A stretch of 64,000 nt of DNA from positions 1,302,001 to 1,366,000 of the forward strand of contig NZ_CP031217.1 in NCBI RefSeq assembly GCF_003346815.1, written 5' to 3'. Shown here one piece after another: positions 29,678 through 32,515 of this stretch (the first letter of the stretch is position 1; every line of letters begins with the position of its first letter). Made by a program: the position numbers and the translations under genes. The notes beneath the pieces are model-generated. The model worked only from the letters and a program-made list of their open reading frames with translations. It searched no databases and was not told the DNA's origin. Source of the stretch: Halarcobacter bivalviorum (GTDB lineage Bacteria; Campylobacterota; Campylobacteria; Campylobacterales; Arcobacteraceae).

Positions 29678-29956
29678 TTACATTCCCATAAAAAGTTTTC
29701 CTAAGAAAGTCTCTAAGAAAATTAATGCAAAAATTAAAATTATTGGTGCAAAATCCATTCCTCCAAAAACTGTTGGAATAAATCTTCTAACTAAATTATA
29801 TGCAGGCTCTGTTAATCTATAAAGCATCTGTACAATTGGATTATAAGGATCAGGTTTAACCCATGAAATGATTGCTGAAATTATAATTACCCATTTATAT
29901 AAAAATATTACAGTTAATACAACTGTAAAAACTGAACTTAAAAGTGCATCTATCAT
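29678..29956 (-). CDS. YggT family membrane protein
   Basis: 92 aa with two hydrophobic segments ([24 protein letters not shown] and [20 protein letters not shown]) around a short loop with the YggT motif [27 protein letters not shown]. The family sits beside division or osmotic-stress genes in many bacteria; its action is unknown. It overlaps gltX by 4 bp and lies 1 bp before the transglycosylase gene, forming one transcription unit with both. Confidence 0.88.
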
Positions 29957-31224
29957 TTTACGATTTCTCCTAAATAGTTTTTGATTAAAGGATAAACTTC
30001 TGAAATATCAGTTGTTTTTGTCCCTGTAAGAAGATAAGACAGAGGAGTTAATAGCTTTTCTTGCTTTAATCCTGTTTTTTCTATTATATAAGTTTTTAGC
30101 TCATTAAAACTTTCAATATAAGGAGCATCTTTTAAACATAATTTTAATTCAACAAATTCTTCTTCAAAACCTTCACAAGTTGATTTTGGAGAAAAAATAA
30201 GGTTAATTTTCTCTTTAAGCTCTTTAATTGTACTTACTTCATTTAAAAAAAGTTTGGCAAGTCTGCCAATATCTGTATCTGCAAAACCTAAAATTTTTGA
30301 AAGTCTCATCTCATCAAATGATTGAAGATGTTTTTTATTTAATTCTTTTAGTTTTTTAATATCAAAATGTACATTTTCTTTAGATATATTTTTAATATCA
30401 AACCATTCTATAGCCTCTTCTAAAGTAAAAAACTCTTTAGGTGCATCATTTCCAAGTAAAACTAAATAGTTTGCAATTGCTGCTGGTAAAAAACCTTCAT
30501 CAATTAAATATTTTACAGAAGAGTTCTCTAAATCACTACTTACATTAGGAATATGAGTATAGTTTATCTCTTTATCATAATTTAAAAGCTTTCTTATATG
30601 AACTTGCCTTGGGCTCTCAATTAATTGCTCTTCTGAAGTAATAACATCAGAAATATCATATAACATATCATCAATAGCACTTGCATAGTTATCTGTTGGT
30701 GTTTTATCATGCCTTAAAATAGGGAAAAAGTCTATTTCAGAAGACTTATATAAAAGATTTCCTTTTAAAAGATCTTTTATTTCAATATTTTCTTCAGGTT
30801 TTTTAATTCTTACAATAAAAGGAGAGTTTACATTTAAAATTGTTTCATCAGAAAGTGTTTGACAAAAACCATCATATTCATAAGATTTATTTTCTTTTTT
30901 TGCACTCTCTTTTAACTCTTCAATTTTTGCATCAGAACAGAAACAGGCAAAAGCATTTTTTTGTCCCATTAATTGCATAGCAATTTTTTGATGATATTTT
31001 AAATTTTCACTCTCATAAACAACATTCGCGTAATCAATTGAAAAAAGATTTAATAATTCTAAAATCTCTTTCTCTTTTCCTTCTATATTATTCTCTTTAT
31101 CTGTATCATCAATTCTAATTAAAAGTTTTTGATTCTTTTGTTTTGAAACAATATAATTAAATATTGCTACTCTTAAATCACCTAAATGCATATCTCTTGT
31201 TGGACTTTGTGCAAATCTTAACAA
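29953..31224 (-). CDS. gltX: Glutamyl-tRNA synthetase-like protein with degraded catalytic motifs
   Basis: 423 aa. Order and length match the second GluRS of Campylobacterota (H. pylori HP0643, from memory GltX2, which charges tRNA-Gln), including the anticodon-binding C-terminus. The catalytic core is altered: the class I signature reads [10 protein letters not shown] (residues 7-16) instead of SPTGxMHIGN, the site normally RGEDHxxNT is SEEQLIES near residues 197-204, and the KMSKR loop is missing, with [19 protein letters not shown] running straight into the following helix. The frame is intact, with TTG 31224 preceded by AAGGA. It may be inactive, re-purposed or still active by another route. 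Confidence 0.85.
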
Positions 31225-31225
31225 A

Positions 31226-32515
31226 CTACTTCCTTACTATTGAAAATGATAAATTTTTAATCTCATCATGAGATTTGATATAAGTATTTAAATCTTCTAA
31301 TTTAAGATTTTCTATTTTTTCTAACTCTTTTTGAGTATGATTAAAGTCTAAACCTTTATAGAATAGGGTAAATGCTCTATTTAATCTTTGAGATAAAGTT
31401 TCCGTTCTTAAAGGTTCACTTCCTAAAAGAAAGTTTTTAGCAGCATCAAGTTCTACTTGTGTAACACCATCTTTTACAAAATCTGTAATAATCTTTGAAA
31501 CAAGCTCTTTAGCTTCATCCGCACTCTCTAGTTTTGTTTGTAAATATCCAGTAAAATAGTTGTGAGATTTATTTATAGAAACATATCCATAAGCAGAATA
31601 AGCTAAACCTCTCTTTACTCTTATCTCTTCCATTAATCTACTTCCAAAACCACTTCCCCCAAGAATAAATGAAGCAACTTTAGCTTTATAATTTTCTTCA
31701 TTTGTTACTGTTGTATTAAAAGGGCTACCAAAATAGATATAAGCTTGTTGTGTATCTTTCGTAATAGTTTTAGTTTGAGCTTTATCATTAGTTGTTACAC
31801 TAATAAATTTATTCTCTTTATTTGCATTTAGATTTTTAAGTAACTTTGTTAATTTTATTGATAATTCATCAAAATCAATATCTCCACCAGCGACAATAAT
31901 TAAATTATTTAAATCAATTGTTTTTTCTAAAAAAGTTTTTATATCAGCTAGTTTAATCTTTGATATAGATTCAATTGTACCACTTGCAGGGTTTTCTAAA
32001 GCACTATTTTTAAAAAGTAATGTTTTTAGTTCTTTACTTGCAATATAATCAAAATCGTTCTCTTTTCTTTTTAATGAACCTGTTTTTATTGTTTTTATTT
32101 TTTCTAAAACTTTATTGTCATAATTAGGATCATTTAAAAGCTCTTTTAGAAGTTTTAATGCTTTATCATTTACTTCTTTGATAGATGAAAGTTCTATTAC
32201 AAAAGTTTCAAATCCAACACTTGAGCTTAAAGAGATTGCAGAATCTTCTAGTTTTTGAGCAAATTTTGTAGAACCTAACTCTTTTGTTCCTTCATCAAGT
32301 AATTTTGATGAAAGAGAAGCAAGACCACTTTTCTTTTTGTCTTGCATATAACCAGAGTTTTTAAAAACAAGTTGTAAATTTAATATTGGTAAATTTTTAT
32401 CTTGCTCAAAAATTACTGGAATATCTATATTATTTATTTTTATGTGCTTAACTGTAGCAGACATTAAATATCCTTGAATTAATAGTAGTAATAAAAAAGA
32501 TTTAAAGAGGTTCAT
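31226..32515 (-). CDS. M16 peptidase-family protein lacking the zinc motif
   Basis: 429 aa with a signal peptide (residues ~1-19). The overall fold is M16 (two clan-ME domains with [24 protein letters not shown] near residues 285-305), but at the position of HxxEH the sequence is GLASLSSKL (Ser67, Ser70, Lys71), so it cannot bind catalytic zinc. Such proteins usually act as the non-peptidase partner of an active M16 chain or as scaffold. Located in the periplasm by its signal. Neighbours gltX (1 bp after its stop) and mqnC (3 bp before its start) give a tightly packed unit. Confidence 0.85.

Follow-up and report, generated by a model that had tools for sequence, protein, structure and literature searches.

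The ancestral second glutamyl-tRNA synthetase of Campylobacterota, GluRS2 (GltX2), charges tRNA-Gln with glutamate for GatCAB. GlnRS was found together with GluRS2 in six of 10 epsilon-proteobacteria, and in 2014 this GlnRS was suggested to be possibly non-functional (PMC3927822). Synthetase-derived proteins that have no charging activity are already known (PMC9437257): HisZ, the HisRS-like regulatory subunit of HisG, is a bacterial protein that does not adenylate and serves a non-charging role, and LeuRS-I of Sulfolobaceae is a class I paralogue that binds tRNA without aminoacylating it and is needed for optimal growth. The second GluRS of T. maritima has likewise been reported as inactive, with a reported origin in duplication of the catalytic domain (PMC3927822), and GluQRS (YadB) is a GluRS-derived paralogue that is catalytic and lacks an anticodon domain.

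We analyzed a gltX2 gene in a 64,000-nucleotide stretch of the Halarcobacter bivalviorum genome (the window). Its product resembles the GluRS2 of the H. pylori type in that it is an orthologue by sequence and fold, comes from the HIGN-type lineage and keeps the zinc and helical domains, but it has no KMSKS loop and no RGEDH glycine, its HIGH motif is altered, and it occurs together with GlnRS. HisZ offers a parallel, but it is a class II protein with a known partner, whereas decayed GltX2 is class I and was inactivated recurrently and independently. LeuRS-I still forms leucyl-adenylate, whereas the ATP site of decayed GltX2 appears from its residues to be destroyed; T. maritima GluRS2 differs in having no tie to a gain of GlnRS; and GluQRS, which shares the same type of zinc motif, is the reverse of decayed GltX2 in what it has kept. 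We found no prior report of recurrent GluRS2 inactivation in the open-access literature searched. Our preferred reading, to which we give a probability of roughly 75%, is that this protein is a GluRS2 pseudoenzyme, whose ATP site was erased after the gain of GlnRS and which has been retained for binding rather than for catalysis.

The window gltX2 gene and its catalytic site

The gltX2 gene (29953..31224, minus strand) starts with TTG and encodes 423 amino acids with no interruption of the frame. Its assignment rests on matches to the profiles PF00749 (167 bits) and TIGR00464, the GluRS equivalog, for which its 298 bits barely exceed the cut-off of 289.95 (~290). Thus, annotation by profile would misname this copy, since it is still above the curated cut-off for "glutamate--tRNA ligase." The match to the GluQRS (YadB) profile reached 125 bits, short of the cut-off of 277, and the product keeps a C-terminal helical domain, unlike GluQRS, which is a catalytic core without an anticodon-binding domain. 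The product aligns over its full length with GltX2 relatives, at 51-74% identity (74% for the nearest), compared to ~32% for GltX1, and these comparisons point to membership by descent in the Campylobacterota GltX2 orthologue group. The downstream gene (29678..29956, minus strand), which we take from the appearance of its sequence to encode a yggT-like membrane protein, overlaps gltX2 by the four bases ATGA. The upstream gene (31226..32515, minus strand), presumably for an M16-peptidase-like protein, again by appearance, lies one base from gltX2, a spacing from which we place the two in one operon.

The original prediction held that a KMSKR loop of ~11 residues is missing between the flanking segments. 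Alignment with intact Arcobacteraceae orthologues confirmed the loss, which removes the whole KMSKR motif at residues 224-236 (30517..30555, minus strand), but corrected its size to nine residues; the same alignment showed no displaced KMSKS-like residues near the deletion. The other changes are as had been described. In the HIGH region (residues 7-16; 31177..31206, minus strand), where the aligned intact form is SPTGDMHIGN, SPTG has become SPTR and HIGN has become HLGD, with the histidine of the motif retained, as is a glycine that most sister copies have lost. The strand equivalent to RGEDH in the orthologue alignment reads TSEEQ (residues 196-200; 30625..30639, minus strand), and Y178 and R196 are also lost. 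The window protein therefore lacks three motifs of a working GluRS, namely the KMSKS loop, HIGH in an SPTG context and an RGEDH-type ATP strand. This loss of ATP-site residues supports the prediction of lost or changed catalysis, and suggests that neither adenylation nor charging activity remains.

The body of the protein is well preserved. The zinc-binding motif CxCx20Yx3C, as defined in PMC4381286, is present (C94, C96, Y117 and C121; 30862..30945, minus strand). An AlphaFold model of the window protein has a mean pLDDT of 93.4 and no disordered stretches, and a PDB search with this model ranked GluRS structures at the top, with TM-scores of ~0.8. A model of an intact GltX2, built on a shallow alignment, has a pLDDT of 78. 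According to the model of the window protein, decayed GltX2 retains the GluRS fold.

GlnRS and the state of GltX2 across Campylobacterales

What the original prediction had missed is the cause: an acquired GlnRS beside an intact GltX1, with the loss tracking GlnRS throughout the phylum. The host genome (G000), which is closed and 2.68 Mb in size, carries three tRNA-synt_1c genes, encoding GltX1, GlnRS and the decayed GltX2. GltX1 (G000:C1:46326-47459) has HIGH and KLSKR intact. GlnRS (G000:C1:901347-902909; 710 bits) occupies a 777-residue frame with HIGH and MSKR intact, and its sequence implies that Gln-tRNA can now be made directly in this host. In the host and in nearly all of the GlnRS-bearing genomes listed, GlnRS ends in a tail that matches the YqeY-like region at the C terminus of GatB. 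GatB is present in the host, and AsnRS was not found there, the sole match to the AsnRS profile being below the family cut-off and only partial in its coverage; it lies in a frame of 584 residues, which fits AspRS. GatCAB is therefore still needed for Asn-tRNA, and loss of the whole indirect pathway is ruled out.

We examined GltX2 in 99 Arcobacteraceae genomes and in 84 genomes of other Campylobacterales families, many of them drafts or MAGs, and scored its state on 11 catalytic residues. Among the Arcobacteraceae without GlnRS, 39 of 40 kept 10-11 of these residues. In contrast, six or fewer were kept in 56 of the 59 with GlnRS (a count that takes in one partial gene, in G051, and leaves out two broken or stop-ridden matches, in G045 and G071); the other three were intact or partly altered. 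The one exception lacking GlnRS is G076 (L097; L318), which has a decayed GltX2 and no detected GlnRS in a genome that is 74% complete; its GlnRS is probably missing from the assembly. The same pattern holds in the other families, where GltX2 keeps 10-11 residues in all 19 genomes without GlnRS and seven or fewer in 55 of the 65 with it, the remaining ten being graded: all 11 residues are kept in G454, G224, G356 and G309, and 8-10 in G441, G316, G431, G376, G421 and G275. In G441, the only scored residue to be lost is the RGEDH glycine, which has become E, and KMSKR is intact. The association of GlnRS with decay is strong in both sets, if kinship is ignored (Fisher P = 8e-23 in Arcobacteraceae; 6e-12 in the other families).

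The loop changes in GlnRS-bearing Arcobacteraceae run from substitutions through deletions of many sizes, and because 56 of 59 relatives with GlnRS each carry the loss in a form of their own, it is due to neither chance nor sequencing error. An assembly or frameshift artefact is similarly ruled out by the open frame and by graded, independent losses in ~110 relatives. Intact and decayed GltX2 both occur inside single genera, and on a quick single-gene tree of GltX1 from 61 genomes, some of whose branches are weak, GlnRS state and GltX2 decay each change 13 times; together these observations disfavor a single ancestral decay event. On supported branches of this tree, 10 independent pairs differ in GlnRS, of which a median of eight were concordant with decay and none were opposite (paired-contrast test, median P = 0.008, range 0.004-0.07). 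Up to 20 separate losses are needed on this tree should decay be irreversible.

These results bear on the 2014 suggestion, under which GluRS2 would retain a reduced but real activity and GlnRS would be a silent partner. That GlnRS is patchy and GluRS2 universal, as argued at the time (PMC3927822), is in its favor, but both the HIGH and the MSKR motif of GlnRS are intact in each of the 11 genomes checked from the window's genus, the dN/dS of GlnRS is ~0.07-0.2, and GltX2 motifs are lost only where GlnRS is present. We consider a silent GlnRS extremely improbable, since the sequence data point the other way.

Selection on decayed copies

A gene made redundant by GlnRS might simply erode, with frames that are open only through the recency of decay. 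We compared substitution patterns among copies, using pairwise Nei-Gojobori dN/dS (dS is saturated for distant pairs). Such slow erosion into a functionless relic would fit the graded series from intact through truncated to absent across families, and the complete loss of the gene from some genomes. Indeed, ~13 of 80 GlnRS-bearing genomes outside Arcobacteraceae have no recognizable gltX2 (G109, G111, G129, G142, G143, G144, G169, G180, G181, G222, G272, G345 and G355); they are apparently the end state of decay, and some lineages can thus do without the relic. However, when both copies of a pair have already lost their catalytic residues, dN/dS still falls well short of 1: it is 0.10-0.16 among the nearest decayed relatives of the window copy, 0.1-0.33 for most other decayed pairs and 0.06-0.32 for decayed pairs in other families, compared to ~0.1 for intact pairs. 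Single pairs gave 0.10 (G061/G063), 0.16 (G061/G062), 0.11 (G091/G095) and up to ~0.33 (G079/G082). Moreover, ~6% of single-base changes in the window codons create a stop, such that 20-50 stop hits are expected under neutrality at the observed dS, and none were seen. The zinc ligands C94, C96, Y117 and C121 are invariant in 57 of 57 decayed Arcobacteraceae copies, and the zinc domain is constrained as in live enzymes. Slow erosion is thus strongly disfavored, and we hold it to be unlikely; a plain pseudogene is ruled out by dN/dS, the stop expectation and the unbroken frames. The retained, intact frame of the original prediction is borne out by this purifying selection, as well as by the kept fold, and its proposal of another task gains support, in that the comparative evidence of retention suggests the protein may have one.

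Constraint differs sharply along the protein. In decayed copies compared to intact ones, dN/dS rises from 0.05 to 0.72 in the KMSKS region, from 0.01 to 0.18 in the HIGH region, from 0.05 to 0.19 in the RGEDH region and from 0.13 to 0.42 at the anticodon-binding tip (approximately 30010..30111, minus strand), where constraint is relaxed. In contrast, values are 0.06 in decayed vs. 0.11 in intact copies for residues 61-90, 0.13 vs. 0.18 for the zinc domain (residues 91-140) and 0.11 vs. 0.10 for residues 301-340. R3, D185, D186, N261 and N305 share the invariance of the zinc ligands across the 57 copies. Thus, the ATP site has been abandoned while the zinc and helical parts remain constrained; some of this constraint could reflect maintenance of the fold rather than a partner surface. 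In sequence and model, the window copy shows what defines a pseudoenzyme, catalytic motifs lost from a fold under selection.

We also considered that decayed GltX2 continues to catalyze a reaction, one whose chemistry or substrate has changed such that the KMSKS loop is dispensable, much as GluQRS changed its acceptor. Most copies do keep R3 (57/57), S7 (54/57) and R196 (44/57), residues presumed, by analogy with T. thermophilus GluRS, to bind glutamate. But G197, the glycine of the RGEDH-equivalent strand, is kept in none of the 57 copies, its varied and often charged replacements being mostly D, S, E, N or T; the loop varies in extent, from complete but with changed residues to wholly absent, and has the dN/dS of 0.72 given above; no new conserved catalytic set replaces the lost residues; and the window copy has lost both Y178 and R196. 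A changed catalyst is accordingly very unlikely in our judgment.

Candidate partners of the proposed GltX2 pseudoenzyme

In the pseudoenzyme reading, the ancestral Campylobacterota GluRS2 would have been made redundant by the acquired GlnRS, and its apparatus for ATP binding and adenylation (HIGH, the RGEDH glycine and KMSKS) would then have been erased, such that the decayed protein should make neither Glu-AMP nor Glu-tRNA-Gln. The folded protein would be kept by selection and would most likely act by binding, through the zinc domain and helical core, both of which are under full constraint. The GluRS zinc domain is reported to contact GatCAB in the transamidosome of T. maritima, interaction with GatB having been proposed as its core function, and has a further part in placing the acceptor arm of the tRNA (PMC4381286). 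Based on these contacts, the candidate partners would be the tRNA acceptor arm and/or GatCAB, on which the supply of Asn-tRNA continues to depend, or GlnRS; the choice of partner is speculative, and we would not put it at even odds.

GatCAB alone does not explain retention. The GlnRS-bearing genomes without gltX2 have neither lost GatB nor gained AsnRS, and thus retention of GltX2 does not simply track GatCAB.

The same reading with a named partner would make decayed GltX2 an accessory or regulator specific to the GlnRS that was acquired, in the way that HisZ serves HisG. Outside Arcobacteraceae, glnS directly adjoins gltX2 in 31 of 65 genomes, in tandem or divergent orientation, and linkage arose in several arrangements: the two genes form tandem overlapping pairs at L202, L208, L217 and L215, with an overlap of 8 nt in tandem examples, and are divergent at L229, L230 and L207, with gaps of roughly 100-250 nt. 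This linkage favors a dedicated GlnRS accessory, yet it could mirror the history of insertion; the genes are unlinked in the window genome and in most Arcobacteraceae, and gltX2 is absent from some GlnRS genomes. We therefore regard a role specific to GlnRS as rather doubtful. More broadly, and only tentatively, each gain of GlnRS may have led to a GluRS2 that was switched off at the ATP site and kept, via its zinc domain, as a partner of GatCAB, tRNA or GlnRS, forming a new subunit of a transamidosome or charging complex.

The phylum thus offers many independent replicates of the passage from indirect (GluRS2 and GatCAB) to direct (GlnRS) synthesis of Gln-tRNA, with the intermediates still alive. 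The repeated loss of the chemistry from a body that is still under selection sets the catalytic functions of a synthetase apart from the non-catalytic ones, which thereby become open to experiment.
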